Assembly: GCF_900217235.1 (NCBI RefSeq)
Contig: NZ_LT907975.1
Coordinates: 3,447,001 to 3,511,000, forward strand
DNA length: 64,000 bases
Reading direction: 5' to 3'
DNA from: Pseudodesulfovibrio profundus
GTDB taxonomy: Bacteria > Desulfobacterota > Desulfovibrionia > Desulfovibrionales > Desulfovibrionaceae
Shown in pieces: positions 3,938-41,846 of the stretch (positions within the stretch are counted from its first letter, which is position 1; every line of letters begins with the position of its first letter). Made by a program: the position numbers and the translations under genes. Below the pieces are notes generated by a model that made no database searches, had not been told where the DNA came from, and saw only the letters and a list, made by a program, of their open reading frames with translations.

Positions 3938-6271
3938 ATGCCATCAGATAAAAAAACTCCACCCAATACAGCGCAAGAGCCGGTAGCTCCCACAGAGGAA
4001 ACCGCCCGCTCAAAGCCTTCGGCGGCCAAGCCGGATGCTCCCAAGCCGAAACAGGGCGCTGGTGCTCCTCCGCCCGGAGCTGGCAAGCAGCAGCCCCCTC
4101 AGTCCAATAGGCCGGAAGCATTGAGCAGGGATGAACGGCTCGACCATAAAGACATCGATTTTCAGCCGCCCCTTGTCATCTGCCTGTCCATCATAAGTCG
4201 TCTTTTGGGCAAGCCCGTTTCATCGGCAACGCTCAAGGCGGGTATTCCCCAGCAGGAAGGGGTCATTACTGCGGCTTCCATTGTTCGCGCTGCCGAACGG
4301 ATTGGCTTCAAGGCCAAAACCGTTCATCGCAAGACACCTCGGTCAATATCCAAACTGGTCCTTCCGTCCATCCTGCTGCTGCGAGGCGGCAATGCCTGCG
4401 TTCTGCTGGATACGGATGACAATAAGGCACGGGTTATCATCCCCGGTCACGGCATGGATGAAACCGAGATGCCCATGGACAAGCTTGAAGAGGAGTACAC
4501 CGGATACGCCATTCTGTGCCATCGCGCATCAAAGCTCGACAAACGGGCCAGTGAACTGAAGCAGGTCAAGAGCAAGCGGTGGTTCTGGGGCGTGATGCTC
4601 AAATTCTGGCCCATCTACAAGCACGTTATCGGCGCGTCCATCATGACCAACCTGATCATTGTTGCGTCGCCGCTGTTCGTGATGAACGTCTATGATCGGG
4701 TCATACCGAATAATGCCATCGACACGCTGTGGGCGTTGGCCATCGGTATAGGTATCGCTTATCTTTTCGACTTTCTGCTGAAAAATCTTCGCTCCTATTT
4801 CGTGGACGTGGCCGGACGCAATGCCGACGTATTGATCGGGTCGCGCATCATGCAGCATCTCATGTCGGCCCGACTGGACCACATGCCGGAGTCGGCCGGA
4901 GCCGTTGCCAACAATGTGCGTGAATTCGAGTCACTACGAGAGTTCTTCAGTTCCAGTTCGCTGGTGGCGCTCATCGACATGCCGTTTTTGATACTGTTCA
5001 TTGCGGTTATTCATTTTATCGGCGGTCCCATTGCATGGCCCATATTTATCGCTGTGCCGTTGGTCATCCTGTTCGGCCTGTTCCTGCAGGTGCCGTTTCA
5101 GCACATCATCGAAAACCACTACAAGGAATCCACGCAGAAGAACGCGCTTCTTTTCGAGATCGTTCACGGGTTGGAGACCATCAAAACCTCCATGGCAGAA
5201 GGTCGCATGCAGGCCCGCTGGGAGAATGTCGTCGGTATGTCGGCCCAGTCCAACAGCAGCGCAAAGGTCTTTGCCAACCTGTCCATCACGTTTTCGGTGT
5301 TCGTCACCCAGATGGTGTCCGTTGCGATCATCATCATCGGTGTTTTTCTGATTTCCAAGGGTGAACTGACCGTTGGTGGGCTTATCGCCTGTAATATCCT
5401 TTCGGGGCGGGCCATGGCGCCGCTGAGTGCGGTCGCAGGGCTGCTCTCCCGTTTCCAGCAGTCGCGCATGGCGCTTAATGCGCTGGATATGCTCATGGAC
5501 ATGCCTTCTGAGCGTCCTGATGACAAAGAGACATTTCATTACGGTGAGATGGAAGCATCCATGCAGTTGGAGAATGTTTCCTTCAGCTATCCCGGTACGG
5601 ATAAGGCGGTCCTCAATGAGGTCAATCTGATGCTCAAACCCGGCGACAAGGTCGGTATTGTCGGACGAACCGGTGCGGGTAAATCCACCCTCGGCAAGCT
5701 GTGTGTGGGGCTGTATCAGCCTGTGGCCGGTTCGGTGAAGGTGGGTAACATCGATCTGCGGCAAATGGATGTGGCTGATCTTCGACGTAAGGTTGGCTAT
5801 GTGTCGCAGGATTCGCTGCTCTTCTACGGTACCCTTCGCGACAATATCGCCTTTGGCCTGCCCGAGGCCGACGACCAGTCCATCAAGTTTGCCGCCGACG
5901 TAGCCGGAGTCAACGATTTCGTTACCGATCATCCCGCCGGATTCGGCATGATGGTCGGCGAGCGGGGATCGTCCCTGTCAGGCGGGCAGCGACAGGCTGT
6001 ATCCGTTGCCAGGGCCATTCTTCCCGACCCGGAAATCCTGATCATGGATGAGCCTTCCAGCAATATGGACAACCAGTCCGAATACCGGCTCAAATCAAAG
6101 CTGGAACCGTATATCAAGGACAAGACGGTCATCGTGATCACCCACCGCCATTCCATGCTTGATCTGGTCGACCGGCTGGTGATCATGGACAAGGGACGCA
6201 TCGTGGTGGACGGTCCCAAGCAGGCTGTGCTCGACGGCTTGCGATCCGGCAAGATCAAGGTTTCCATGTGA
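3938..6271 (+). CDS. Type I secretion ABC transporter ATPase/permease (LapB-like)
   Basis: This 777-residue inner-membrane exporter is the energy-coupling part of a type I secretion system. Residues 1-65 are rich in Pro, Ala and Lys and probably disordered. Residues 70-200 form a C39-like domain without a recognisable catalytic Cys, so it would bind substrate rather than cleave a leader. About residues 220-500 are the six-helix ABC membrane domain. The nucleotide-binding domain has Walker A GRTGAGKST (about 575), signature LSGGQRQ (about 680) and Walker B ILIMDEPS (about 700). A HlyD-type fusion protein and a LapG-like protease follow 7 and 1345 bases later, so the likely cargo is the RTX adhesin at 32832-41846. 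The start has no strong ribosome-binding site. Confidence 0.93.
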   Translation: MPSDKKTPPNTAQEPVAPTEETARSKPSAAKPDAPKPKQGAGAPPPGAGKQQPPQSNRPEALSRDERLDHKDIDFQPPLVICLSIISRLLGKPVSSATLKAGIPQQEGVITAASIVRAAERIGFKAKTVHRKTPRSISKLVLPSILLLRGGNACVLLDTDDNKARVIIPGHGMDETEMPMDKLEEEYTGYAILCHRASKLDKRASELKQVKSKRWFWGVMLKFWPIYKHVIGASIMTNLIIVASPLFVMNVYDRVIPNNAIDTLWALAIGIGIAYLFDFLLKNLRSYFVDVAGRNADVLIGSRIMQHLMSARLDHMPESAGAVANNVREFESLREFFSSSSLVALIDMPFLILFIAVIHFIGGPIAWPIFIAVPLVILFGLFLQVPFQHIIENHYKESTQKNALLFEIVHGLETIKTSMAEGRMQARWENVVGMSAQSNSSAKVFANLSITFSVFVTQMVSVAIIIIGVFLISKGELTVGGLIACNILSGRAMAPLSAVAGLLSRFQQSRMALNALDMLMDMPSERPDDKETFHYGEMEASMQLENVSFSYPGTDKAVLNEVNLMLKPGDKVGIVGRTGAGKSTLGKLCVGLYQPVAGSVKVGNIDLRQMDVADLRRKVGYVSQDSLLFYGTLRDNIAFGLPEADDQSIKFAADVAGVNDFVTDHPAGFGMMVGERGSSLSGGQRQAVSVARAILPDPEILIMDEPSSNMDNQSEYRLKSKLEPYIKDKTVIVITHRHSMLDLVDRLVIMDKGRIVVDGPKQAVLDGLRSGKIKVSM

Positions 6272-6278
6272 GGTCGAC

Positions 6279-7601
6279 ATGAAGAAATACGATAAAGAAA
6301 CGTTGCTGTTCATGTCCGAGGTGGACCAGGCCATGTATGGAAAAGGCCGCCGCTACACCTACATCATGTCCACCTGCATTATCCTGATGTTCGTGGGCTT
6401 CCTGGTATGGGCAAAGTTCGCCGTGCTCGACGAGGTGACTCGTGGATTCGGGCGCATCATTCCCTCCCAGCGCATTCAGGAAATCCAGAACCTTGAAGGC
6501 GGTATCCTTAGCGATATCTACGTCAACGAGGGGCAGGTGGTTGAAAAGGGCGATGTTCTTTGCCGTCTGCATAACGAGCAGGCCGCCAGTTTTTATCGTG
6601 ACGCACAGGCCAAGGCCCTGGAGCACCGTGCCGCCATCGCCCGACTCATTGGCGTGGTGGAAGGCATTGAACCAGTATTTGATGAAGAGTTGAAAGAAAA
6701 GGCTCCACAATTGGTCAATGACCAACGCCGGATATTCAAGGCACAAAAAGAACAGTTGGACATAGAACTCGCCCTCTTGCGCGACCAGTACGAGCAGAAG
6801 CAGCAGGAAGTGAACGAGATGGCGGGGCGCCGGAAGCAACTGCTTTCCAGTCTGAAGGTGGCGGAAAAGCAGTTGGATATCACTCGCCCGCTGGTCAAGA
6901 AGCAGATCCACTCCGAGTTGGACTTTCTCAATCTTGAACAAAAAGTCGTGGAGCTTCGAGGTGATGTGGACGCCCTGCGTCTGGGGATACCCAGAGTGCA
7001 GAGTGCCGCCAGAGAAGCACTGGGACGCATCGAACAACGCAAGGCCGAGCACCGCTCCGCAGCGTTGGAAGAGATCAACGAGCGGCGCCTTGAATTGATT
7101 TCCATTCGTGAGTCCTTGGCAGCAGGAAGTGATCGCGTGACCCGAACCGATGTTCGTTCCCCGGTCAGAGGTATCGTAAAATCCATTTATATCAATACGC
7201 TTGGTGGTGTTGTGCAGCCCGGCGAGTCGATCATGGAAGTGGTCCCTCTCGACGACACCCTGTTGGTGGAAGCGCAGATCAAGCCGGCGGATATCGCATT
7301 CCTCCATCCCCAGCAAAAAGCACAGGTCAAGATCACTGCCTATGACTTTTCCATCTATGGTGGATTGGAAGGGACAGTCGAGCACATCAGCGCGGATACC
7401 ATTGAAAACGAGAAAGGGGAGAGCTTCTACCTCGTCAAGGTGCGCACTACCCAGAACGTGATGAAGTATCGCGGTCAGGAATTGCCCATTATTCCGGGCA
7501 TGACTGCTCAGGTGGATATCCTGACCGGAGAGAAGTCCGTGCTCGACTATCTGCTCAAGCCCATCCTCAAGGCCAAGCAAAACGCGCTTAGGGAGCGCTA
7601 G
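6279..7601 (+). CDS. Type I secretion membrane-fusion protein (HlyD/LapC family)
   Basis: This 440-residue periplasmic adaptor has one membrane helix near residues 25-47 (YIMSTCIILMFVGFLVWAKF). It is followed by the first half of a lipoyl-like barrel (FGRIIPSQRIQEIQNLEGGI), a long charged coiled coil (about residues 120-290), and the second half plus beta-barrel (VRSPVRGIVKSIYINTLGGV, then VEAQIKPADIAFLHPQQKA). This order is diagnostic of HlyD-type adaptors that bridge the ABC exporter and a TolC-like pore. It starts seven bases after the exporter gene with the site gagg upstream. Its TolC partner is most likely the product of 31394-32719, which sits beside the adhesin rather than here. Confidence 0.93.
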   Translation: MKKYDKETLLFMSEVDQAMYGKGRRYTYIMSTCIILMFVGFLVWAKFAVLDEVTRGFGRIIPSQRIQEIQNLEGGILSDIYVNEGQVVEKGDVLCRLHNEQAASFYRDAQAKALEHRAAIARLIGVVEGIEPVFDEELKEKAPQLVNDQRRIFKAQKEQLDIELALLRDQYEQKQQEVNEMAGRRKQLLSSLKVAEKQLDITRPLVKKQIHSELDFLNLEQKVVELRGDVDALRLGIPRVQSAAREALGRIEQRKAEHRSAALEEINERRLELISIRESLAAGSDRVTRTDVRSPVRGIVKSIYINTLGGVVQPGESIMEVVPLDDTLLVEAQIKPADIAFLHPQQKAQVKITAYDFSIYGGLEGTVEHISADTIENEKGESFYLVKVRTTQNVMKYRGQELPIIPGMTAQVDILTGEKSVLDYLLKPILKAKQNALRER

Positions 7602-7609
7602 CCCTCAGT

Positions 7610-8341
7610 ATGACTGAGAGGTCGTCCATATTACATCCGGCGGCGATGCTCGTGTGTGTTGCGTGCATCGTCGTCTGCCTTTGCTGTGGTCCGGCCGCAG
7701 CAGCAGATTCCGCGCCTCCCAAGGTGAAGCTCTTTGGTACCGTGGAGTTCAAGGGGAAGATCAAGCAATTGCCCAACTGGACCCGTGTGCTCGGTAAAAT
7801 GGAAAAGTGGAAAGGGTTCTTCCAGTACATTTCCACTGCCAAGCTGCCCTCGAAATCAGGTTGGTCCAAGCTGGTCAAGGAAGTTGAAGGGCAGGACGCC
7901 ATGGGCAAGCTCAAAGCCGTCAACAAGTTCTTCAACCTGTGGCCCTACCGGCTGGATGCTGCCAACTATGGCGTATCGGACTATTGGGCCACCCCCATGG
8001 AGTTTCTTAAGAAATCAGGCGATTGCGAGGACTATGCAATCGCCAAGTACTATGCCTTGCAGGAGTTCGGTTTTTCGATCGACTCCATGCGCATTGTGGC
8101 CGTGAAGGATTACATCCGAGGCATCGGCCATGCCGTGCTCGTCGTCTATACCGATAGCGGGGCATACGTGCTCGATAATCAGACGAACATGGTGCTGTCC
8201 CACGCTCGGTACAAGCACTATATTCCCCAGTATTCAGTAAATGAGAAATTTCGTTGGATGCACGTTCCCACCAAAAAACGGTTCGGGAAGAAAGCGACAA
8301 CGAACAACGTGAAACAGGAAAACGTTTTACCTGTTCCGTAA
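7610..8341 (+). CDS. lapG: LapG-like periplasmic transglutaminase-like cysteine protease
   Basis: The 243-residue product begins with a signal-peptide-like segment (hydrophobic residues 11-30). It continues with the LapG-type fold: LFGTVEFKGKIKQLPNW, then SGDCEDYAIAKYYAL holding Cys139, GIGHAVLVVY holding His174, and YVLDNQ holding Asp189. These form the Cys-His-Asp triad of the bacterial transglutaminase-like cysteine proteases (BTLCP). Asp138, Glu140 and Asp141 around the cysteine match the calcium-binding acidic cluster of LapG. In Pseudomonas, LapG removes the N-terminal retention module of the surface adhesin LapA at a dialanine site and so releases the cell from a biofilm. The gene lies eight bases after the fusion protein and upstream of the membrane receptor candidate, fitting a Lap-like control circuit. 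Confidence 0.88.
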   Translation: MTERSSILHPAAMLVCVACIVVCLCCGPAAAADSAPPKVKLFGTVEFKGKIKQLPNWTRVLGKMEKWKGFFQYISTAKLPSKSGWSKLVKEVEGQDAMGKLKAVNKFFNLWPYRLDAANYGVSDYWATPMEFLKKSGDCEDYAIAKYYALQEFGFSIDSMRIVAVKDYIRGIGHAVLVVYTDSGAYVLDNQTNMVLSHARYKHYIPQYSVNEKFRWMHVPTKKRFGKKATTNNVKQENVLPVP

Positions 8342-8361
8342 AACACCAGATGGAGTTGACT

Positions 8362-10440
8362 ATGGCATCAAACATTACCATGACCGAAGCGTCCGAACCG
8401 ATAGGAGGGGCCAAACAAGGCGTAAAAATTGCCGTTGTTTTGGCTTTTGTGCTGGTTTTGTCCGCGGGGATGGCTTTTCTGGGTGGCCGGGCCATCGATG
8501 AAAAGCGTCAGGTGACCCTGGATAATCAGGAGAAACGGCTTCGACTCCTCGCCCACGGGCGGGCTCAGATGGTCGAGGCGTGGCTGGAGAATCTTTCTCA
8601 GCAGGGTGACCGGCTGATTAAGTCGGACCTGTTCCGGCTCTACGCCGCTGAAGTTGATTCGATCAACGGCGACCTGGCATCCATTTTCGGGGCAATTCCC
8701 GGGCAGGATGTCGACAGCGGCGTGCCTGAATTGGCCCAGCAGTTGCCGATGATGCAGAACATGCTGCGCGAATTTTCCGCCTATGCCGGGTTCGTCAATG
8801 CACGAATCCTCAACCGGGAAGGCGACGCTTATATCGCCACGGATGGTCATCTGCCTCCCATGCTCGCCGAACAGGTGGCACAGGCCTCCGAGGCTATCCG
8901 CACGAAGTCCCCACGGTTCTCGCCCCTCAGAAAAACCGGGCAGGGAGTTGAGCTGGACGTATACGTGCCCATCTTCCCGCCGGACGATACCGATGGCGAA
9001 CAGGCACCGGTTGGTACCCTGATGATTACACGACAGGTCTCGGGGCAGATCACTGAACTGCTTTCCAATTCGTCCCTGTCGGCTGAAGGTGAGAAAACCC
9101 GCCTTATGCAGCGCATGGGCAATGTGTACAGGGAAGTGACACCCTGGACCGCTTCGGGGTTCTCGGATGTGGTGGCTGATATTTCTTTGAATGAGGACAA
9201 CATCCTGCCCTTTGCCCAGCGGAGCAGTCTGTCGGATGAGAGCAGCAAGGTGTTCTCCATGGCTGTCCCGGTGAATGGGCCGCAGTGGTGGATCGTTCAG
9301 GAAGCCGGAGCACAAGGTGTTCTCGGCCCCATCGAGAGCTACAGTGGTACGGTCTATGTGGTCACCGGACTGGGTGTACTGACCGCCTTCCTGATGGCCG
9401 GGCTTGCCTGGTGGGTCATGGCCGGGGTGCAGTCAAAACGTGTTGCAGCCGAATTCAAGGCGCTGGCGTTGCAGATCGAGGACCAGAAGCGGTTCATCGA
9501 CTCAATCAATGCCAATATCGAAGAGTTCATCACGCTCAAGGATGCCGAAGGCAAGTACACGTACGTCAATGATGCCTTTGCCCTGGCTGTGGGCAGAAGC
9601 CGGGACGAGATCATCGGCATGGATGGCGTGGCAGTGTTTGGCTACGATACGGCCAAGCGCCTCTCTTCCATGGACGATATCGTTCTGATGGAAAATCGGC
9701 AGGTTGTCGTTAACGAGTCGGTCTTCCTGCGTTCTCAGCGTTACCGTTTCCAGATAGCGAAATCTCCTTATTGCGGTGCAGATGGCACCTGCATCGGCAT
9801 TGTCGAAGTGTATCGCGATATGACGGAATTTGTCGCCATACAGGAGAAGAACCGTCGGCTTATCCGTCGGGCCATGGAGGCTCTTGGTTCCACCATTGAA
9901 GCGGCAGATCCCTATCTGGGTGGTCACACAAAGCTGCTGGCCGGTTTATCGGTCGAGGTGGCTCGCCACATGCATTTGCCCGAGACCGATGTGGTGGAAA
10001 TTGAAACCGCGGCCAACCTCTCTCAGATAGGCAAGATGTTCGTGCCCAATGAGATTCTGACCAAACCCGGGAAGCTGACTCCTGAGGAAAAGGCGACCAT
10101 GGAAAATCATGTGGAGCACGCCTACCGCATCCTCAAGGATATCGATATTGCCGAAGGGGTGCTCATCGCCATTTACCAGATGAGTGAACATGTCGACGGC
10201 AGCGGGTATCCCAAGAAGCTGACAGGTAATGAAATCATTTTGCCTGCACGCATCCTGTCATCCCTCAACGCGTTTTGCGCCATGATTCGCCCCCGTTCAT
10301 ATCGCGGGGCCAAATCACCTGAGGATGCGCTGGGAATCCTGTTGCAGGAAAATACCAAATACGATCAGGACGTTGTTCACGCATTGGGCGAAGTGCTCAA
10401 AACCCCCACAGGGGAGCGCGTACTACGCGAAGAGTTGTAA
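8362..10440 (+). CDS. Membrane PAS / degenerate HD-GYP protein (DvhD-like c-di-GMP receptor candidate)
   Basis: ATG 8362 follows the site tggag; a longer open frame overlaps the protease gene. The 692-residue protein has a membrane helix at about 20-43, a periplasmic sensor domain of roughly 285 residues, a second helix at about 330-353, a PAS domain (about 376-492) and a C-terminal HD-GYP domain (about 503-692). The GYP part is intact (DGSGYPKKL), but the HD pair is Ser554-Gln555, the HH pair is Met607-Ser608 and the late Asp is Asn636. Several metal ligands are therefore lost and phosphodiesterase activity is unlikely. Being the last gene of a secretion/LapG operon, it probably replaces LapD by binding c-di-GMP in the cytoplasm and holding LapG in the periplasm. 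From memory, D. vulgaris has an unrelated LapD substitute called DvhD. Confidence 0.8.
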   Translation: MASNITMTEASEPIGGAKQGVKIAVVLAFVLVLSAGMAFLGGRAIDEKRQVTLDNQEKRLRLLAHGRAQMVEAWLENLSQQGDRLIKSDLFRLYAAEVDSINGDLASIFGAIPGQDVDSGVPELAQQLPMMQNMLREFSAYAGFVNARILNREGDAYIATDGHLPPMLAEQVAQASEAIRTKSPRFSPLRKTGQGVELDVYVPIFPPDDTDGEQAPVGTLMITRQVSGQITELLSNSSLSAEGEKTRLMQRMGNVYREVTPWTASGFSDVVADISLNEDNILPFAQRSSLSDESSKVFSMAVPVNGPQWWIVQEAGAQGVLGPIESYSGTVYVVTGLGVLTAFLMAGLAWWVMAGVQSKRVAAEFKALALQIEDQKRFIDSINANIEEFITLKDAEGKYTYVNDAFALAVGRSRDEIIGMDGVAVFGYDTAKRLSSMDDIVLMENRQVVVNESVFLRSQRYRFQIAKSPYCGADGTCIGIVEVYRDMTEFVAIQEKNRRLIRRAMEALGSTIEAADPYLGGHTKLLAGLSVEVARHMHLPETDVVEIETAANLSQIGKMFVPNEILTKPGKLTPEEKATMENHVEHAYRILKDIDIAEGVLIAIYQMSEHVDGSGYPKKLTGNEIILPARILSSLNAFCAMIRPRSYRGAKSPEDALGILLQENTKYDQDVVHALGEVLKTPTGERVLREEL

Positions 10441-10467
10441 TAACCGATCCGTCTGGTGTGGATCGCA

Positions 10468-10499
10468 AGTCCCGGTGTTTCGACGCCGGGACTTTTTTG
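10468..10499 (+). terminator. Intrinsic terminator of the secretion/LapG operon
   Basis: AGTCCCGG (10468-10475) pairs with CCGGGACT (10486-10493) and is followed by TTTTTT. It ends the operon that begins at 3938. Confidence 0.9.
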
Positions 10500-31393: not shown

Positions 31394-32719
31394 TTATTGA
31401 GCTTCCGGATCGTAAGCTGCCTGTTTGACTTCCAATGCATTGATCAGGCGACCTTCCAGAGTGAGGAAACGGTACAGGGAGAATTCGCGGTTGGACATGG
31501 CGGTTTCCAGCAGTACCGAGTTGCTGAATACTTCATTGATGGAGTCGAGCACATCCAGCAGGGAGCGCTGACCAACATTGAATTGCATCAGGTACATGTC
31601 ACGGGATTCCATGCTGTACTGCAGGGCTTCCTGGTGCTTCTGGATGGACTGAACCGCAGTCTGGTACTCGGTCCAGGCTGTAGCAACCTGTCGGGAAAGA
31701 TCTTCCACGGTATCCTGAAGAGTGGCCTTGGTTTCCTTGATGCGATCATCAGCAGACTGGCGATCGTAGTAATCAGAGGTGCCGTTGAACAGATTCCAGT
31801 TCAGCGCGAGCATGGCACGGTTGTCGTTGAGGTAGGTCTCGGAACCGTCCAAGTCATCGGTGTAGCGTGAGCTGAGTTCAATATTCACAGTGGGCATGTA
31901 AGCGGCAGTGACAACACCCTTGTCGCGTTCGGTTGCAGCGACATCCGCTTTAATGGCCTTGACCTTGGGGTTGTTATCCAGAGCCTTGTCCATGATGGTG
32001 TCCATGGAAGCAGGGATTGCGTCCATCTGGAAACCTGTGTCCTGCAGCGGACCGGCCTGAAGCCCGGTGACACGGCGATATTCAGCTTCTGCGATACGCA
32101 GGGCGCCCATGTCGGAAATGAGGGTGGTCTCAGCGCGTGCGACACGGCCTCTGGCCTGCATCTCGTCAGCCTTATTGCCAGCACCACCGGCTACGCGTTC
32201 TGCGATGGAGTCCAGCACTTCCTGGTGAGCCGTGATGTTTTCACCGGCCAACGCAACCAGCTTGCGTTCGCGAACGATGTCGATATGGGCGCGGATGGCG
32301 TCCAGAGCGATGTTTTCCACGTTGTCATACAAACGATGTTCGGCAGATTCGAGACGATTCTTGGAACCCTGGTAGTCATTGTAACGGTTCATGCCGTCAA
32401 AGACGTTCTGGGTCAGAGTCAGCGTGGAGTCGGAAGCAGTGTTGGTGTCTCCGTCCTTGTTGTCAATACGAGTTGCTCTGCTATCGTAGTTTTGCAGTCC
32501 GTAGTTGACCGAAAGATCAAGGGACGGGAAAAAACGACCAAGGGCCGATGACAAGTCATTGGATACTGCGTCACGGTTGTGCAGCAGTGCTTTGATTTGC
32601 GGATGGTGCTTTACGGCAGCCTCCACCGACTCCTTGATGGTTGTGGTGCCGTCCGGGCCGGCAAGGGCCGGGCTGAATGACACAATGGAAATGAATATTG
32701 CAAAGATCAGTCGTCTCAT
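31394..32719 (-). CDS. TolC-family outer-membrane protein for type I secretion
   Basis: The start at 32719 has GAGGA five bases upstream and gives a clean signal peptide (RRLIFAIFISIVSFSPALA). The 441-residue mature-type protein is helical. It has two TolC repeats (IKESVEAAVKHHPQIKALLH near the N-terminus, MDKALDNNPKVKAIKADVAA in the middle) and the late segment FNVGQRSLLDVLDSINEV typical of type I secretion TolC proteins. It would form the outer-membrane and periplasmic duct. It lies 112 bases downstream of the giant adhesin on the same strand, so it is the likely exit channel for that protein together with the exporter encoded at 3938-7601. Confidence 0.92.
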   Translation of the reverse strand: MRRLIFAIFISIVSFSPALAGPDGTTTIKESVEAAVKHHPQIKALLHNRDAVSNDLSSALGRFFPSLDLSVNYGLQNYDSRATRIDNKDGDTNTASDSTLTLTQNVFDGMNRYNDYQGSKNRLESAEHRLYDNVENIALDAIRAHIDIVRERKLVALAGENITAHQEVLDSIAERVAGGAGNKADEMQARGRVARAETTLISDMGALRIAEAEYRRVTGLQAGPLQDTGFQMDAIPASMDTIMDKALDNNPKVKAIKADVAATERDKGVVTAAYMPTVNIELSSRYTDDLDGSETYLNDNRAMLALNWNLFNGTSDYYDRQSADDRIKETKATLQDTVEDLSRQVATAWTEYQTAVQSIQKHQEALQYSMESRDMYLMQFNVGQRSLLDVLDSINEVFSNSVLLETAMSNREFSLYRFLTLEGRLINALEVKQAAYDPEAQ

Positions 32720-32796
32720 CTGAGTCCTCATCGTAAAGTAAAAGTATATAGTCTTCTGGTAGCTTGAATCCGGCTTGTTGGCAAGCCCTTGTAACG

Positions 32797-32827
32797 AAAA
32801 GCCCGGCATATGATATGCCGGGCTTTT
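32797..32827 (-). terminator. Terminator between adhesin and TolC-like gene
   Basis: AAAAGCCCGGCATA pairs with TATGCCGGGCTTTT around TGA, giving a 14-bp stem immediately after the adhesin stop. It would uncouple the very long adhesin transcript from the TolC-like gene. Confidence 0.9.
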
Positions 32828-32831
32828 GTTG

Positions 32832-35800
32832 TTATTCAGTACCGGAGTCGATCATGAACTGGATTAGGTCGTCAGCGGTGTTGGTGTCGCTGATTGTGGT
32901 CTGGTGCTCGGAGAGTTCGGTTTGCGTTACGCCCAGGAGCTTGACGACAACATCGTTGCCCTGATCGTCACCAACGAGCACTTCCGTGTAATCGATGGAA
33001 TTGTCCGTGTGCGAGGTGATATCCTTTACCGACATGCCGTCACCCAGTTCAAGGGCGTCGGTGCCGACGTGGAAGTCCTCGACCACGATCATGTCTTCAC
33101 CATCAGACAATGCTGATCTGTCGATGAGGATGGTGTCGTTGCCTTCACCCGTGATCACGTAATTGTTGCCACTACCGGCGTTGATGATGTCGTCACCGTC
33201 GCCGCCGAAGATGAAGTCATTGCCGTCGCCGCCATTCAGAAGGTCGTTGCCGTTTCCGCCGTAGATGGCATCGTTGCCCTCATCGCCGAAGATCTGCACA
33301 CCATCTGCGGCAGCGTCTTCAGGCTGTTCCGGATCGGTTGCGAAGATGATGTCGTCACCCTTGGAACCGTTGAGCAGATCGTCATCATTACCGATGATCT
33401 GGGTGTCGAAGACGCGCTCCACCTGGACGTTGTCAATGATCGTTCCGGTGTGATCTCCGCCTGCGGAGTGGTGCTCGGCAAAGGTCAACTCAGCATGATC
33501 AGTGGGCGCCACAGCTTCGAACTCAGCTTCTGCCCAGTGAGCGTTCTTGATGTTCGGCTCGTAGGTCTGAATGACTACGCCATCCTGAACCAGTTCGTAC
33601 TTCGCGGAATCACTATTCCAGAGCACGCTGGCTACAAGGCTATCGCCCAGCAGGACATCGAAGTTGTTTGATTCGAACGTCGAGCCCCAGGTTCCGCCAA
33701 AAGCGAAGCTGATGGAGACAGTCTCTCCTGCCTTGGTGGCGATAGTCTGCGAGAGAACGTCATTGCCGTGGGTCGAATCCAATTCCATGAACTGGCCGTT
33801 ATCGCGAGTTCTTTCTCCGGCGTAGTCGCGAACGGCCATGTCGTTGCCATTGTTAGACCAGTTGTCGACCTCAGTCGTTGCAAACGGGTTTTCAGTCATT
33901 GTCGCAGTGGACTCAAATCCCGAGTTCAGCACAATCTGGCCGGTGGCCGCAACATCCACGACAGCAATGGTCGAGGTGGCGGTGTTGCTCTCTTCTCCGG
34001 CAGTATCCATGACCGTGATCTCGATGACCCGGTCGGTCTCATCAGGAGTAGTGCGGCTGTTTTCGAAGGTGATGCCTCCTATGACATCTTCATAGACGTC
34101 CATGGGGAAGTCGCCGGAAAGGGAGACAGTGATTTCGCCGTTCGCCTCGGTTATCTCAGCGATCATGCCGTCCGGCAGGTCGCCGGTATTCAGGATGTCA
34201 CCATCCTTGGCGTTGGTCAGAACGATGGTCGCACCGGACATTTCAGCGGAGTCCACATCATTGATGGAGACATCGCCGGCCACGGCAACCTTGCCCTCGC
34301 TGTCAACATAGGTGGCAGCGTAATCAGCGGTGTTGTCCTGTGCGGAGTCGACGCTGATGACCAGATCGTCGAAATCGTCATCGTCATTGGTCCGCAACTG
34401 GTCATCGACCAATACGGTCAGTGAACCATCGGCTTCGTTGACGAACTGGAATGTCGCTTCCTCTCCATCGGGGTTGAAGGCGGCAATGTCGAACTGAACG
34501 TCGACAATCTTGCTGTTTCCTCCCCGGTCAAGGGAGAGAGCCCAATGCCCTTCATGCATGACGAACTGGAGGTTCGAGGACTGAATGTCGCCATTGGTGA
34601 TGCCCTTGCCACCTGCATCGGAGATCAGGAAGAAGTGGACATCCTGATCGCCCTCGAAGGTCTCGAGTACGTTCCGCAGCATGGACGCATTGTTGGAATT
34701 GGTAAGAATGACTTCCGGGCTTTCTGGTATGGGATCGCCATCGGACACGAAGTAAACGCCGAGCATGTTGGTGTAGCTCGCATGTTCGCTGTCGACAGTG
34801 ACCTCGGTTCCCTGAGCCAGGTCCAGAGTCGGAGCCTCGTTGGACAGGGTCTGAGGATTGATATCGATGGTTACAGTGGATTCTTCTGCTGCCGGAAGAC
34901 CGTCGTTGTCCACGGGGATGTAATCAAAGGAAGTCTCAAGGCCTCTTTCCACACCAACATAACGCAGTTCCCAGTTGGAACCGACGTCGGAGTCAGTAGT
35001 GAATACGATCTCATCGAAACCATTTCCACCGGTCATTTCCGAGGTGATGGTGTACTCGTTCAGCAGTTCACCGTTGCCAAGGTTCTTGACCGCGCCGGAG
35101 CCGACGATCTCGCCGTCGAGCATGGCGATCCAGACCGCGTTGGCATCCACCTCTACGTTATCAGGATCAAAGTGGCCGCCCAGTCCGTCGAATCCGACAG
35201 TGGCACTGTCGATGGTTGTTCCAAAATCAACAGTGATGGACTCAGTGTGGTTCTTGGTATTTTCAATTCCATCTCCCTTGCCGACACCGATCCCCTGGCC
35301 GATATGATTCGCATCGTTGTCGTATTGCACGAACTTTCCGCCGGTTCCATTTGCGTGGAAGGTGTATCCTTCTTCGGCATTACCGGACAGCTTGAGCTTG
35401 CCGCTGGTGACGGTCACGGTGTTATCGCCCCATGTCTGGGTGAGCTTGTGGCCGCCTTGTACCAACGTTCCCCAGTTGTCCCAGTTCAGGTTCTGGCCGT
35501 CGATGGAGCCGAGAACAAAGGTGGATGATTGGGACGGGTCTGCTTCGAAGGTGAAGGAACCGGAGCCGAGATCGTAGGTCTCGCCAACAACCACCTGCTC
35601 GCCGTTGTAGAGCAGGGTGCCGCCGGTGGGTTCGGAAGTGATGGTGATGCCGGTGACATCGCCGTCTGCATCAAAGACGTTGGTGTCTTCGATGAAGTTG
35701 ATCTCAACTGGCTGGTTCATGTTGATTTCTTCAACAGTGAAGTCCGATCCGGTGGGACGTTCGTTGACGCCGATATTCAGGGTCTCTTCAACGGTGTTGT

Positions 35801-38800
35801 TCTGTCCGTCCGTCACGGTGACAGTGACAGACAGGTCGTCAGCGTTGTCCCAGTCGATTGCTGCGGAGTCGGTCAGGGTGATTACTCCGGTGTCAGGGTC
35901 GATGGAGAACGGTGAGTCGCCTTCGATAGAGAAGGTGAGGTCAGTGGAGTCGATGTCCGATGCAACTGCGGTGGCGACGTAGGTGCCGTTGGCGGCGTCC
36001 ACGTTCAGTTCCGGATTCTCGGTCAGGGTGTCCACGCTCCGCATGGTGATATTGTCGATGACGTTACCGAATCCATCGTTGTTATGGGAGGCCAGAACCA
36101 GCTCGCCGGAGGTCGCACCTTCGGGGACATCCACGACGATGGTGCCGGTTTCCCAGTCAATGTTTTCGGGGTTGAAAGAACCGACCAACTGGCCGTTCCA
36201 ATACACGTCAATGTTGCCGCTGTCGGCCTGATTGAGGTTGGCTCCGCGGTCAAAGAGGTCCAGCTCGATGACATACTGTCCCTGGCTGAGGCCATTGATG
36301 GTCTGCGAAATTACCAGTGCCTCGCCGCTTCCTACGCCGGTATCAATGACGTTGTCCTGGTCGGATGCACCGGGAATGCCGTCGCGGTTGCCGCTCATGA
36401 CTTCCCAGCGGTCGCCTTCGACCAGCTGCCAAGGCTCGGGTACGTGACCCTTCGCCCAGTCACCGCTATCGATGTCGATGCTTTCGAAGCTGCCGTTAAG
36501 GATGAAGTTGTCATCATTCACTGCAGCAGCAAATGTAAGCAGGGTCGGATCGTTGATGTTCTCGACCTTGACAGAAGCGGTTCTGTCAGCGGTAAGTTCT
36601 CCGTCTGTTACGGTGAAACCGAATTCAACATCGCCACTCCAATCATCGGTGGGCTCGAAGGTCCAGGTTCCATCTTCGTTGTCGACAAGAGTGCCATCGC
36701 CCTTTTCAAGGGTGACCGAAGTCACGGCGAGGTCGTCGCCGTCCAGGTCGGAAGCGTTTTCGAGAAGCTCTTCCTTGCTGAAAGTGATGGATGTTTCTTC
36801 ATCAATGGAGTCGAACGTGACATTAGGTGCGGTGAATCCTTCATTCACATCCCCGACATTGACATACAGGGTGTCGGTAACCGGATCGGCAATGCCGTCG
36901 GACACGGACACTTCAATGGCGTACTGGCCGCCTGCGCTCTCAATGGCCTCGAAATCAACTTCGCCATTCACGGTGATGACGCCGGTGTTCGGGTCGATGG
37001 TGAACGGTCCGTCGGTATCGATGGAGAAGGTCAGGTTGGTTGTGTCGACATCTTCACCCACTGCGGTGGCGATGTATGTGCCAAGGGCCACGTTCTCCTG
37101 AATGGAAACCGTGTTGTTTTCCGGCTCAACAGAAGTGGAAAGACGGACGTTGTCGACAACGATGCCGTATCCGTCGTTGTTGAATGATTCCAGCTTCAAC
37201 GTGCCGCTGCCGCCCTCGGTGTCGATATTGACGGTAAAAGAGTTGCTGGTCCAGTTGTCGGAATTGGGATCAATGGTACCGATATGTTCGTTGTTCCAGT
37301 AGACATTCAGGATGCCGCTGGGGTCTTCGCCCAGATTCTCGCCGCGATCAAAGGCGTCGAGGGTCAGGGTGTATTCTCCCTTGGGAAGAGAATCGATGGT
37401 CTGGGAGATGATCAGCGCTTCTCCATGACCAACGCCGAAGTCGATGACGTTGTCACCGTCGGTGGCGCCGTCGATGCCGAAGCGATCACCGCGCATGACT
37501 TCCCAGCGGTCGCCGCCTTCGATCTGCCAGCCTTCGGGAGTGTGGCCTTGAGCCCATCCGCCCTGTTCGATGACGACATCTTCAAAGCTGCCGTTGACGA
37601 GCAGGTTGGAGGAATTGGTCAGGAAGCTGAGTTCCGGTGCGTCATTGATGCCGGTCACGTTGATGGTCAGCGTGGCTGTGGACGTGTTGTCGCCGTCCTT
37701 TACGTTGTATTCAACATCAAAGCTGAGCCGTTCGTCTTCGGCCAACTCATAGTTGGAAGCATCGAAGGTGTAGGTGCCATCGGGATTGAAGGTCAGGCCT
37801 TCGGGCGCATTATCCGGATCAACAAGGCTGAACTCCAGGTCTTCAATGTCGGTGTCGACGTCAGAGATCTGATCGGGATCGGCCACAGAGCCGGAGATAG
37901 TCGACTCTTCATCGACTTCAGCGGTTTCGCCGCTCACGACCGGGGCTTCATTCACGTCGCCCACATGAACGGTGAAGGAGTATGGATCGCCAAGCAATTC
38001 GCCTTCGCTATCAATATTCTTGGGAGTTACCGTGATTTCGTAGCTGGCGTTGGTCTCGAAGTCGAATCCTGCGCCACCAATGGCGGTCACAACACCGTTG
38101 GCATTGATGGTGAACATGTGGCTCGCATCAGAACCGTCAGCAGCAGTGGCAACGAGGTCGAAGAAGATCTCATCGCCTTCGATGTCTTCTGCTGTCACCT
38201 GTGCAATGTCGGTGTCGGTGGCCGTGTTTTCCAGAATGGCGAAGACCGGGTTGCCGGACTCGTCAACCGCATTGACCAGTACGTTGTCGATGCCGAACGA
38301 TTCGTTGTTCAGAGCTTCGTTAAGTGTGGAACCAAGTTCCAGGGTCACGCTGTCACCGGGGTTGGTGATGGTGATGGACATGTGGTGGATCTGGTCTTCG
38401 TATCCACCAAAGCCGATGTTCGAGCGGCCATCGTCCTGGGCAGTGAATTCCCAGGTGATGACAGAACCGTCGTCGGTTGTGATGGTACCACTTCGGAAAT
38501 CGGTGTCTTCATCGCTGTCGTTGCGTCGGCTGCGCTCCAGCGGCAGGACGATGTCGTTACCATCTACCGTAATGACGAGATCATCAAATCCCCAGGCCTT
38601 TGTCTGGGTCCATGAGTCGATCTCATACACATCGAAGTCGATGGTGACCGTCTCGGTTCCTTCCACAATATCAAATGTCTTGGTGGTGCTGTCGCCCATG
38701 CCGAATCGGCCGAGGAAGCTGCCGAAATCCGTACTGGTTTCGGTGGTCGTGTTATCAGTCCAGCCAGAGGCTCCCTGCTCAAAGTTGCTGGCGTGCATGC

Positions 38801-41800
38801 CAACACCCGTGATGACCGGAGCGTCATTCGTGCCGTTGACTACAACAGTGATGGTCTCGGTGGTCGATCCGTCCTTGGAGGTGACGGTAAAGGTCTCGGT
38901 GAACGAATCACCGGTGCTCAGTTCCTGAACCTCAGGAATGTTGTTGTCGATGGAATATGTCCATTCGCCAGATTCGGTGATGGTCAGTTCGCCGATATTA
39001 TCACCCTGATCGACATTGGTATCGAAAAGAGATTCGCCGGCATCATCATCGTCGATGGTGAGGGTGCCGCCTGTAGTCAGCGAGACATCCTGATCCACAT
39101 CCGCTCTCAGTTCCTTTACAGAAGAGGAGTCGTCACCGGAAATGGTGGGCAAGTCATTGGTGCCGTTGATGGTGATAGTAATGGTCTCGGTAGCCGAGCC
39201 GTCCTTTGAGGTGACGGTGAACGTTTCGGTGAGCGTGTCGCCTTCACCCAGTTGCTGGATGGCGGCGGTGTTATTGTCGACAGTGTATTCCCATGCGCCG
39301 TTTTCAGTGATGGTCAACTGTCCGAGCTTGCCGGTGTTGTCCACGGTGGTGGAGAATCCGTCTTCGTCGAGGTCCACGTCTTCGGAAAGCAGAGTGCCGC
39401 TAGTGGTGAGCGTTGCGGCAGCTTCTTCGGTCACGCCGCCGGTGGTGTCACCGGAAATCCTGGGAACATCATTGGTGCCAGTGATGGTGATAGTGATGGT
39501 CTCGGTAGCCGATCCATCCTTTGAGGTGACGGTGAACGTTTCGGTGAGCGTATCGTCTTCACCCAACTGCTGGATGGCGGTGGTGTCATTGTCGACAGTG
39601 TATTCCCATGCACCGTTTTCAGTGATGGTCAACTGACCGAGCTTGCCGGTGTTGTCCACGGTGATGGAGAAGCCGTTTTCGTCGAGGTCCACGTCTTCGG
39701 AAAGCAGAGTGCCGCTAGTGGTGAGCGTTGCGGCAGCTTCTTCGGTCACGCCGCCGGTGGTGTCACCGGAAATCCTGGGAACATCATTGGTGCCAGTGAT
39801 GGTGATAGTGATGGTCTCGGTAGCCGATCCATCCTTTGAGGTGACGGTGAACGTTTCGGTGAGCGTATCGTCTTCACCCAACTGCTGGATGGCGGTGGTG
39901 TCATTGTCGACAGTGTATTCCCATGCACCGTTTTCAGTGATGGTCAACTGACCGAGCTTGCCGGTGTTGTCCACGGTGATGGAGAAGCCGTTTTCGTCGA
40001 GGTCCACGTCTTCGGAAAGCAGAGTGCCGCTAGTGGTGAGCGTTGCGGCAGCTTCTTCGGTCACGCCGCCGGTGGTGTCACCGGAAATCCTGGGAACATC
40101 ATTGGTGCCAGTGATGGTGATAGTGATGGTCTCGGTAGCCGATCCATCCTTTGAGGTGACGGTGAACGTTTCGGTGAGCGTATCGTCTTCACCCAACTGC
40201 TGGATGGCGGTGGTGTCATTGTCGACAGTGTATTCCCATGCACCGTTTTCAGTGATGGTCAACTGACCGAGCTTGCCGGTGTTGTCCACGGTGGTGGAGA
40301 AGCCGTCTTCGTCGAGGTCCACGTCTTCGGAAAGTAGGGTGCCGCTAGTGGTGAGCGTTGCGGCAGCTTCTTCGGTCACGCCGCCGGTGGTGTCACCGGA
40401 AATCCTGGGAACATCATTGGTGCCAGTGATGGTGATAGTAATGGTCTCGGTAGCCGAGCCGTCCTTTGAGGTGACGGTGAACGTTTCGGTGAGCGTATCG
40501 TCTTCACCCAACTGCTGGATGGCAGTGGTCGTATTGTCGACAGTGTATTCCCAAACACCGTTTTCAGTGATGGTTAACTGACCGACCTTGCCGGTGTTGT
40601 CCACGGTGGTGGAGAAGCCGTCTTCGTCGAGGTCCACATCTTCGGCCAGCAGGGAACCTGTGGCGGTAAGAGTGGCGGCAGCTTCTTCGGTCACGCCGCC
40701 GGTGGTGTTACCGGAAATGCTGGGCACATCATTGGTTCCAGTGATGGTGACCGTGATGTCATGGGATGTCCCATCAATGGAATAAACAGTGATGGTCTCA
40801 GTCAGTGTCTCGCCTTCAGGTAACTGCTGGATGGCGTCACTGGTGTTATTAAGGGTGTAAGTCCACTGGCCATTAGCATCAATGGAAAGAATACCGTAGT
40901 TGGCACCTTCCGGGGCGCGGGTGGTGTCGATGTACTCTTCGGAGGGGTCATCGATGTCGGAAACATCAAGATCGCCGGATGTCTTAATGAGAACGTCTTC
41001 AGCAACTGCTATGTCGTCATCGCCGGAGAAAATAGCTGCATCATTGACCGGAGTGACAACCAGTGTGCCGCCGCCTGCGGTGGTGAAGGTGCCGTCGCTC
41101 ACCGTGTAGTTGATGTCGAGGTCGCCGTTGAAGTCGGCATCGGGTTCGAAAGTCCAGTAGAGAAGGTTGCCTGCACCGTCGCGGACCTCAGTTAAGGTGC
41201 CGCCGGTGATGGTCAAACCGGTAACGCCCAGGAAAGTCCCTGGATCGGGATCGGACACACGCGAGAGAATGTCAGTGTCACGAATGATAATGGTCCCGTC
41301 TTCTTCCATGGTAAGATTAAGCGGACCGGATACGGAAGGAGCACTCAGGTTGGTTTCGGTGGACGAGGCAAAAGTGGCAGCACCAATGTCGGAATCCTCT
41401 TGATCACCGATCAGTCGGGAGTTTCCGTCAGACTCTAATCCCTGGAGGCGGTCGAAGCTTCTGTACAGCGTTCCGCTGTCGTCGGTGTAAGCTCCAACAC
41501 CACTTCCGGAAGCGCCGCCGTCTGCAGCAGTCTCAAGCGTTTCGGTTTCCTGTCCAGGCTGATTGAAGACGAAAAGGTAGACATCGCCGGGGACCTGTTC
41601 TCCATTCAGTAAAGTGAATGTCGGAGCGTTGCCGGAGCGGGCCACGTTCTCGTAGTTCTCAATGATGATATCCCCCTGTCCCTCCATGGAGATGACAAGG
41701 TTCTCGTTGGAACTGCTGAATACGGCTTCCCCTATGTCGAAGCCGAATACAACTTCTCCATTGTTCGGAAGAGCATATGATACGGATTCGTTACCATTAT

Positions 41801-41846
41801 CCGGTACCTGAATGACGCCGCCGGTTGTGAGCTGAATGTCTGCCAT
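32832..41846 (-). CDS. Giant RTX/VCBS adhesin secreted by type I system (LapA/DvhA-like)
   Basis: A 3004-residue acidic surface protein with gaggg before its ATG and no Sec signal, as expected for type I cargo. Residues 1-100 form a beta-rich putative retention module. The motif TAAD at 106-109 matches the dialanine target of LapG. Residues about 374-898 hold five VCBS-type repeats of 105 residues, flanked by more divergent copies. Further on come cadherin-like and Ig-like domains, two related NGSFE-type ligand-binding domains (about 1410-1572 and 1772-1942), a DUF4114-like domain (about 2350-2500) and a third, distant NSGFES domain (about 2640-2810). RTX nonapeptides such as GGNGNDLLNGGDGND lie at about 2815-2910, followed by a C-terminal secretion signal. 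It probably anchors in the outer membrane for biofilm growth until LapG cuts it. Confidence 0.92.
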   Translation of the reverse strand: MADIQLTTGGVIQVPDNGNESVSYALPNNGEVVFGFDIGEAVFSSSNENLVISMEGQGDIIIENYENVARSGNAPTFTLLNGEQVPGDVYLFVFNQPGQETETLETAADGGASGSGVGAYTDDSGTLYRSFDRLQGLESDGNSRLIGDQEDSDIGAATFASSTETNLSAPSVSGPLNLTMEEDGTIIIRDTDILSRVSDPDPGTFLGVTGLTITGGTLTEVRDGAGNLLYWTFEPDADFNGDLDINYTVSDGTFTTAGGGTLVVTPVNDAAIFSGDDDIAVAEDVLIKTSGDLDVSDIDDPSEEYIDTTRAPEGANYGILSIDANGQWTYTLNNTSDAIQQLPEGETLTETITVYSIDGTSHDITVTITGTNDVPSISGNTTGGVTEEAAATLTATGSLLAEDVDLDEDGFSTTVDNTGKVGQLTITENGVWEYTVDNTTTAIQQLGEDDTLTETFTVTSKDGSATETITITITGTNDVPRISGDTTGGVTEEAAATLTTSGTLLSEDVDLDEDGFSTTVDNTGKLGQLTITENGAWEYTVDNDTTAIQQLGEDDTLTETFTVTSKDGSATETITITITGTNDVPRISGDTTGGVTEEAAATLTTSGTLLSEDVDLDENGFSITVDNTGKLGQLTITENGAWEYTVDNDTTAIQQLGEDDTLTETFTVTSKDGSATETITITITGTNDVPRISGDTTGGVTEEAAATLTTSGTLLSEDVDLDENGFSITVDNTGKLGQLTITENGAWEYTVDNDTTAIQQLGEDDTLTETFTVTSKDGSATETITITITGTNDVPRISGDTTGGVTEEAAATLTTSGTLLSEDVDLDEDGFSTTVDNTGKLGQLTITENGAWEYTVDNNTAAIQQLGEGDTLTETFTVTSKDGSATETITITINGTNDLPTISGDDSSSVKELRADVDQDVSLTTGGTLTIDDDDAGESLFDTNVDQGDNIGELTITESGEWTYSIDNNIPEVQELSTGDSFTETFTVTSKDGSTTETITVVVNGTNDAPVITGVGMHASNFEQGASGWTDNTTTETSTDFGSFLGRFGMGDSTTKTFDIVEGTETVTIDFDVYEIDSWTQTKAWGFDDLVITVDGNDIVLPLERSRRNDSDEDTDFRSGTITTDDGSVITWEFTAQDDGRSNIGFGGYEDQIHHMSITITNPGDSVTLELGSTLNEALNNESFGIDNVLVNAVDESGNPVFAILENTATDTDIAQVTAEDIEGDEIFFDLVATAADGSDASHMFTINANGVVTAIGGAGFDFETNASYEITVTPKNIDSEGELLGDPYSFTVHVGDVNEAPVVSGETAEVDEESTISGSVADPDQISDVDTDIEDLEFSLVDPDNAPEGLTFNPDGTYTFDASNYELAEDERLSFDVEYNVKDGDNTSTATLTINVTGINDAPELSFLTNSSNLLVNGSFEDVVIEQGGWAQGHTPEGWQIEGGDRWEVMRGDRFGIDGATDGDNVIDFGVGHGEALIISQTIDSLPKGEYTLTLDAFDRGENLGEDPSGILNVYWNNEHIGTIDPNSDNWTSNSFTVNIDTEGGSGTLKLESFNNDGYGIVVDNVRLSTSVEPENNTVSIQENVALGTYIATAVGEDVDTTNLTFSIDTDGPFTIDPNTGVITVNGEVDFEAIESAGGQYAIEVSVSDGIADPVTDTLYVNVGDVNEGFTAPNVTFDSIDEETSITFSKEELLENASDLDGDDLAVTSVTLEKGDGTLVDNEDGTWTFEPTDDWSGDVEFGFTVTDGELTADRTASVKVENINDPTLLTFAAAVNDDNFILNGSFESIDIDSGDWAKGHVPEPWQLVEGDRWEVMSGNRDGIPGASDQDNVIDTGVGSGEALVISQTINGLSQGQYVIELDLFDRGANLNQADSGNIDVYWNGQLVGSFNPENIDWETGTIVVDVPEGATSGELVLASHNNDGFGNVIDNITMRSVDTLTENPELNVDAANGTYVATAVASDIDSTDLTFSIEGDSPFSIDPDTGVITLTDSAAIDWDNADDLSVTVTVTDGQNNTVEETLNIGVNERPTGSDFTVEEINMNQPVEINFIEDTNVFDADGDVTGITITSEPTGGTLLYNGEQVVVGETYDLGSGSFTFEADPSQSSTFVLGSIDGQNLNWDNWGTLVQGGHKLTQTWGDNTVTVTSGKLKLSGNAEEGYTFHANGTGGKFVQYDNDANHIGQGIGVGKGDGIENTKNHTESITVDFGTTIDSATVGFDGLGGHFDPDNVEVDANAVWIAMLDGEIVGSGAVKNLGNGELLNEYTITSEMTGGNGFDEIVFTTDSDVGSNWELRYVGVERGLETSFDYIPVDNDGLPAAEESTVTIDINPQTLSNEAPTLDLAQGTEVTVDSEHASYTNMLGVYFVSDGDPIPESPEVILTNSNNASMLRNVLETFEGDQDVHFFLISDAGGKGITNGDIQSSNLQFVMHEGHWALSLDRGGNSKIVDVQFDIAAFNPDGEEATFQFVNEADGSLTVLVDDQLRTNDDDDFDDLVISVDSAQDNTADYAATYVDSEGKVAVAGDVSINDVDSAEMSGATIVLTNAKDGDILNTGDLPDGMIAEITEANGEITVSLSGDFPMDVYEDVIGGITFENSRTTPDETDRVIEITVMDTAGEESNTATSTIAVVDVAATGQIVLNSGFESTATMTENPFATTEVDNWSNNGNDMAVRDYAGERTRDNGQFMELDSTHGNDVLSQTIATKAGETVSISFAFGGTWGSTFESNNFDVLLGDSLVASVLWNSDSAKYELVQDGVVIQTYEPNIKNAHWAEAEFEAVAPTDHAELTFAEHHSAGGDHTGTIIDNVQVERVFDTQIIGNDDDLLNGSKGDDIIFATDPEQPEDAAADGVQIFGDEGNDAIYGGNGNDLLNGGDGNDFIFGGDGDDIINAGSGNNYVITGEGNDTILIDRSALSDGEDMIVVEDFHVGTDALELGDGMSVKDITSHTDNSIDYTEVLVGDDQGNDVVVKLLGVTQTELSEHQTTISDTNTADDLIQFMIDSGTE
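39151..40725 (-). repeat. Five tandem 315-bp repeats coding for VCBS domains
   Basis: The phrase catcattggtgcca and its variants recur with exact 315-bp spacing at about 39151, 39466, 39781, 40096, 40411 and 40726. Each unit encodes a 105-residue domain starting near SGDTTGGVTEEAAATL and ending with ITITITGTNDVPR. The central units are nearly identical at DNA level, while the outer ones diverge. Copy number may vary by recombination. Confidence 0.93.
41523..41528 (-). other. Predicted LapG cleavage dialanine (Ala107-Ala108) of the adhesin
   Basis: The codons for Ala107 and Ala108 sit in the context ETAADGGASGSG. The dialanine lies at nearly the same distance from the N-terminus as in Pseudomonas LapA (about residue 108) and is followed by a flexible Gly/Ser linker. 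Confidence 0.6.

Follow-up and report, generated by a model that had tools for sequence, protein, structure and literature searches.

Organization of the receptor operon

The analyzed window, a 64-kb stretch of the 4.2-Mb Pseudodesulfovibrio profundus genome (G000:C1:3447001-3511000), carries a four-gene operon in the order ABC exporter, HlyD-family protein, LapG-type protease and membrane receptor, which spans window positions 3938-10440 on the forward strand with intergenic gaps of 7, 8 and 20 nt. The first gene (3938-6271, +) encodes a type I secretion ABC exporter of the DvhB/LapB type (TIGR03375, type_I_sec_LssB, E = 2e-282), and the gene order that it opens is the same in relatives. It is followed by a membrane fusion protein of the HlyD family and DvhC/LapC type (6279-7601, +; TIGR01843, E = 4e-120) and by a periplasmic cysteine protease of the DvhG/LapG type (7610-8341, +), which matches Peptidase_C93 (E = 7e-23) and LapG of P. 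fluorescens (4u65, E = 4e-20). In the protease, D138-C139-E140, H174 and D189 are found where the calcium site and the catalytic triad are expected, and an N-terminal signal peptide is likely. The exporter, fusion protein and LapG-like protease named as operon partners in the initial annotation are thus all borne out.

The last gene of the operon encodes the receptor (8362-10440, +) in an open frame that starts with ATG and has GGAG 6 nt upstream of the start codon. A TTG at 8254 offers an alternative start in the same frame, but the longer gene would overlap lapG; residue numbers in the 8254 frame are those counted from ATG 8362 plus 36. An intrinsic terminator with a 12-bp stem and a T run (10467-10494, +) lies just 3' of the stop codon. 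A GAK-system XXXCH domain protein (1922-2584, +; TIGR04358, E = 2e-27) is encoded just upstream of the operon region.

Hydropathy analysis of the receptor shows two hydrophobic maxima, around residues 57-77 and 365-390, with a periplasmic part of ~290 amino acids between them. The protein accordingly contains a first membrane helix (8428-8484, +), a periplasmic dCache domain (8536-9315, +), a second membrane helix (9352-9420, +), a PAS domain (9520-9834, +; PAS_4, E = 5e-13) and an HD-GYP domain (9892-10374, +; HD_5, E = 9e-40), in agreement with the architecture described earlier. All metal ligands of active HD-GYP enzymes (HD, HH and D) are missing from the receptor in our motif table. Ser554-Gln555 (10021-10026, +) replaces His-Asp, Met607-Ser608 (10180-10185, +) replaces His-His, and Asn636 (10267-10269, +) replaces the late metal-binding Asp, all counted from ATG 8362 (S590, Q591, M643, S644 and N672 in the 8254 frame). 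The GSGYP motif (10198-10212, +) is intact. Each of these substitutions had been read correctly in the initial annotation, with exact residue numbers.

Orthology with DvhD of D. vulgaris

The top matches across the whole receptor in a sequence search of the PDB are three structures of D. vulgaris DvhD: 9rc0 (PAS/HD-GYP; E = 5.6e-90, receptor residues 408-725), 9rbz (HD-GYP with c-di-GMP; E = 1.6e-57, residues 522-725) and 9rc2 (periplasmic dCache domain; E = 1.6e-49, residues 95-354). Since the similarity extends to the periplasmic dCache domain, it argues for orthology with DvhD and not merely for a common HD-GYP domain. We therefore consider the protein to be, with a probability of roughly 0.93, the Pseudodesulfovibrio ortholog of DvhD (BfsD, DVU1020) of Desulfovibrio (Nitratidesulfovibrio) vulgaris Hildenborough, a predicted c-di-GMP-binding and non-hydrolysing controller of LapG. 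The nearest named homologs are from Pseudodesulfovibrio.

In DvhD, SQ stands for HD and Met-Asn for HH, no metal density is seen (Font et al. 2026, PMC13090378), and c-di-GMP is bound with a Kd of about 99 nM and is not hydrolyzed with any ion tried (PMC13090378). The DvhD dimer binds two canonical and one bridging c-di-GMP molecules, its helices are splayed on binding, the Tyr of GSGYP touches the phosphate of the ligand, and the periplasmic domain is a dCache domain (PMC13090378). According to the summary in PMC11784015, which cites Karbelkar et al., and to the citation in PMC13090378, DvhD controls the DvhG protease in a c-di-GMP-dependent manner when reconstituted in P. fluorescens; the physical contact between DvhD and DvhG is a model even in D. 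vulgaris. The Dvh system is also present in other Desulfovibrionales (PMC13090378).

The receptor type is therefore already published for D. vulgaris and is not a new LapD substitute: the protein in the window is the DvhD of the P. profundus genome. The initial annotation had proposed a receptor that binds c-di-GMP without cutting it and controls LapG through its periplasmic domain, and had mentioned DvhD as a separate case for comparison. Its core mechanism agrees, by way of orthology, with what is published for DvhD, whereas the treatment of DvhD as a mere comparison case does not hold. A redox input through the PAS domain, also suggested there, is unsupported, as no cofactor is reported for the PAS domain of DvhD (the terms heme, FAD, flavin and redox are absent from PMC13090378) and nothing in the sequence points to one.

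The two receptors share full-length homology including the dCache domain, SQ in place of HD, Met at the first position of HH, Asn in place of the late Asp, the canonical c-di-GMP contacts, and the gene order ABC-HlyD-protease-receptor. They differ in the second position of HH, which is Ser in the window receptor and Asn in DvhD and most relatives. The proteases differ as well: that of the window seems to be of the signal-peptide type, whereas the D. vulgaris protein has a membrane anchor and a long linker. As proposed earlier, the receptor was compared with DvhD and with intact enzymes. PmGH (4mcw/4mdz) and the 3'3'-cGAMP phosphodiesterase 3 (5z7c) have the HD-GYP fold, the GYP loop and several nucleotide-contact residues in common with the receptor, but both keep HD, HH and D; DvhD shares the losses. 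LapD of Pseudomonas fluorescens is likewise an inner-membrane c-di-GMP receptor that uses a dead enzyme domain and is encoded next to a LapG protease, but it is unrelated in sequence: the window receptor has no Pfam match to LapD_MoxY_N, and PAS and HD-GYP domains stand in place of HAMP-GGDEF-EAL.

Conservation of the c-di-GMP site

Published DvhD residue numbers were matched to the PDB chain, and 11 of 11 residues checked carry the stated letter. The eight canonical c-di-GMP contacts of DvhD (Y523, L577, K582, Y621, M646, R650, Y652 and E668) are all identical in the window receptor, where they correspond to Y554, L608, K613, Y652, M677, R681, Y683 and E699 (8254 frame). In contrast to this site, only the proline of the bridging site is kept: K520, P567 and R569 of DvhD correspond to A551, P598 and E600 (8254 frame). 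With Ala and Glu in place of the Lys and Arg of DvhD, the stoichiometry of c-di-GMP binding may differ between the two proteins. Among 147 aligned family rows, which include some genomes twice, Lys at position 520 and Arg at position 569 occur in two rows each, and position 567 is Pro in 106 rows, whereas 36 have Asp there, as confirmed in rows from Desulfomicrobium and Desulfuromonadales. By this alignment, the bridging site of D. vulgaris appears to be poorly conserved, with Lys520 and Arg569 nearly private to that species. Generic PAS/HD-GYP relatives outside the family also retain most nucleotide-contact residues, so contact conservation alone does not prove binding.

The same alignment bears on the possibility that a different cyclic dinucleotide, for example 3'3'-cGAMP, is the main signal of the receptor. 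DvhD does bind 3'3'-cGAMP with a Kd of about 0.5 uM (PMC13090378), and the specificity residue E668 is variable in the family (Glu in 35, Gln in 30 and Ser in 14 of the 147 rows). However, the window receptor retains Glu at this position (E699, 8254 frame) and DvhD binds c-di-GMP five times more tightly, which makes a primary response to cGAMP improbable.

Co-occurrence with LapG and absence of LapD

Members of the DvhD family were identified by full-length search in 98 of 199 genomes of the order, and LapG-type proteases in 97. Both are present in 92 genomes, the DvhD family alone in six, LapG alone in five and neither in 96, so that 92 of the 103 genomes with either have both (Fisher p = 2e-42, a significance inflated by kinship, which was left uncorrected). 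The six genomes with the DvhD family alone (G100, G101, G127, G152, G154 and G175) possess the divergent g13 paralog; those with LapG alone are G001, G004, G015, G068 and G136. The one sampled congener that lacks DvhD (G120) also lacks LapG. The ABC-HlyD-LapG-DvhD order is conserved, LapG being seen in 72 of 80 named loci, many of which lie on short contigs. In the phylogenetic tree, the window receptor groups with its congeners among the LapG-linked DvhDs, while exporter-linked and divergent paralogs form separate clades.

This distribution helps to evaluate the reading that the main target of the receptor is the exporter or the adhesin and not LapG. The receptor gene belongs to an exporter operon, and some family members are neighbors of a type I exporter but have no LapG close by. 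These LapG-less members, however, fall into separate, well-supported clades, the window copy adjoins LapG and is placed among LapG-linked relatives, and D. vulgaris DvhD has been shown to control DvhG (PMC11784015, PMC13090378). We regard a chief action on the exporter or adhesin as quite unlikely, slightly more so than a preference for cGAMP.

A search of the P. profundus genome with the LapD_MoxY_N model gave no matches, while the same model scored above its cut-off in 6 of 247 genomes of the phylum. None of the eight EAL matches in the genome has the architecture of LapD, and its GGDEF-EAL proteins are not beside LapG. Of the eight, three combine GGDEF-EAL with membrane or receiver parts but have intact EAL motifs and a PAS domain before GGDEF (L102-L104), four are soluble-looking or partial EAL proteins (L106-L109), and one (L105) was judged by the length of its EAL frame, which at 374 aa is too short for a LapD. 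Neither the model search nor the EAL proteins thus yielded a canonical LapD encoded at another locus, the presence of which would have spoken against the earlier reading. Within the 199 genomes of the order, high-scoring LapD_MoxY_N matches occur only in G004:C8 and G015:C8 (L232 and L233), where they adjoin LapG in genomes without DvhD. DvhD and LapD look mutually exclusive in the order, as would be expected of alternative LapG partners, and the pattern in these two genomes suggests that one receptor was replaced by the other.

Loss of metal ligands as a family marker

Over the 147 aligned rows, the position of S559 is Ser in 143, that of Q560 is Gln in 145 and that of N641 is Asn in 146. Because the scan of named genomes relied on patterns that contain LSQ, it favors SQ; free of this bias are 65 homolog rows gathered without such patterns, of which 63 carry SQ (the exceptions are SH and CQ) and all 65 the late Asn. 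Outside the family, by contrast, all 19 generic PAS/HD-GYP relatives that were sampled have HD, HH and D intact. We sought HD-intact intermediates beside LapG and found none: full-length matches are all degenerate and generic PAS/HD-GYP proteins all intact. The lost metal ligands are the marker of the DvhD family.

That the receptor is instead an active phosphodiesterase, which uses non-canonical metal ligands to lower local c-di-GMP, is extremely improbable: the domain is clearly HD-GYP and retains GSGYP, but none of HD, HH and the late D is left, a loss that is almost invariant in the family, and in D. vulgaris the ortholog, which lacks the same ligands, shows no hydrolysis with any ion tried (PMC13090378).

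A different kind of degenerate HD-GYP protein was observed in two genomes (L206 and L207 in G278 and G339): Cys-Asn stands in for HD, HH is Lys-Tyr or Lys-Asn, and the late Asp is Asn. Identity is about 28-29% across PAS, HD-GYP and a portion of the periplasmic region. In the neighborhood of one protein of this Cys-Asn type (L228), no LapG was recognized.

The adhesin and its outer membrane channel

By reading the long open frames of the window, we identified a 3004-aa RTX adhesin of the DvhA/LapA type (32832-41846, reverse strand) with cadherin-like repeats, a C-terminal RTX region and a retention domain that has homologs in the order; it is the likely substrate of the protease. A search for the adhesin with TIGR03661 gave no match. 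Over its first 180 residues the protein matches congener adhesins (51% in L074); matches to those of the wider order are weak. The proposed cleavage site A107/A108 lies in T106-A107-A108-D109-G110 (41517-41531, reverse strand), next to the position 106AA107 at which D. vulgaris DvhA is cleaved (PMC11784015). In most homologs, a segment that reads ETAA-x-G or PAAG comes after the retention domain. The gene of a TolC-type outer membrane channel of the DvhE/LapE type (31394-32809, reverse strand; Pfam OEP, E = 7e-57) starts 22 nt after the adhesin gene.

The adhesin and TolC genes are located 21 kb from the receptor operon on the opposite strand, and for this reason their link to the operon rests on homology and on relatives. 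In D. vulgaris the pair belongs to the same cluster, and in several relatives (L121, L122, L123 and L126) TolC and the end of the adhesin are found just past dvhD in convergent orientation. Given this adjacency in relatives, the two blocks seem to have become separated in P. profundus, where about 21 kb now lie between them.

Two other proteins were considered. A FecR-like RTX protein beside a terminase-like gene (L231:7639-9954, reverse strand; G000:C1, about 2253638-2255953) was rejected as the adhesin, as it matches the LapA retention model only weakly and lies in a prophage-like region. A 411-aa protein (L230:6473-7708, reverse strand; G000:C1, about 1402472-1403707) has the same kind of retention-like N-terminus as the adhesin, an EETAADG site and RTX repeats, though it lacks a long repeat region; it is possibly a second, miniature substrate of the protease.

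Proposed mechanism

Several observations support the assignment: orthology, the lost catalytic residues, the kept ligand contacts, the conserved operon, co-occurrence with LapG, the absence of LapD, and the presence of an adhesin and TolC. Binding without hydrolysis, the role as a stand-in for LapD and control of LapG through the periplasmic domain are inferred by orthology from D. vulgaris DvhD. Having lost its metal ligands, the dead HD-GYP domain of the inner-membrane receptor would bind c-di-GMP without hydrolyzing it, and binding would splay the helices that join PAS and HD-GYP. The signal would then pass along the membrane helices and reach the dCache domain in the periplasm, and this domain would restrain the neighboring LapG-type protease. 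At low c-di-GMP the freed protease would cut the adhesin after its retention domain, likely between A107 and A108 of the 3004-aa protein, and the cell would detach.

The same circuit logic, in which a c-di-GMP receptor holds a periplasmic adhesin-releasing protease, has been built from a different dead enzyme, as published for D. vulgaris in 2024-2026. The additions made here are modest: a SQ/Met-Asn/Asn marker that cleanly separates the receptors from the enzymes, the apparent mutual exclusion of DvhD and LapD in the order, the identification of the adhesin and channel that P. profundus encodes, and the partial conservation of the bridging site.

Paralogous receptors

It is conceivable, although we consider it rather doubtful, that the DvhD family is wider than one receptor with one protease and includes a divided receptor in group g3 and a LapG-less clade linked to an Ig-like protein. 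If so, dead HD-GYP receptors would not act on type I adhesins through LapG sequestration alone, and the bridging c-di-GMP site of D. vulgaris would not be general.

Genomes of group g3, which belong to the same family as the window genome, possess two DvhD paralogs, each in a well-supported clade of its own in the tree (L048, L049, L052, L055, L062, L067 and L072 versus L050, L051, L053, L054, L061 and L064). In the LapG-adjacent copy, Tyr523 is replaced by Asn and Tyr621 by Gln, Leu, Thr or a gap, whereas the exporter-adjacent copy retains both; to judge from these substitutions, the paralogs may form a split or heterodimeric receptor. The word 'paralog' is absent from the 2026 DvhD paper (PMC13090378). 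Group g3 lies close to rows from the host-associated Mailhella and Avidesulfovibrio in the tree.

A third clade consists of SQ-type dead HD-GYP receptors without LapG (L056-L060, L068 and L069; for example, L059:4210-10643). Their genes come after those of a type I exporter and adaptor of divergent type, a small one-helix protein, which has a MotB/SiiA-like look and no Pfam match, and a giant Ig-like protein.
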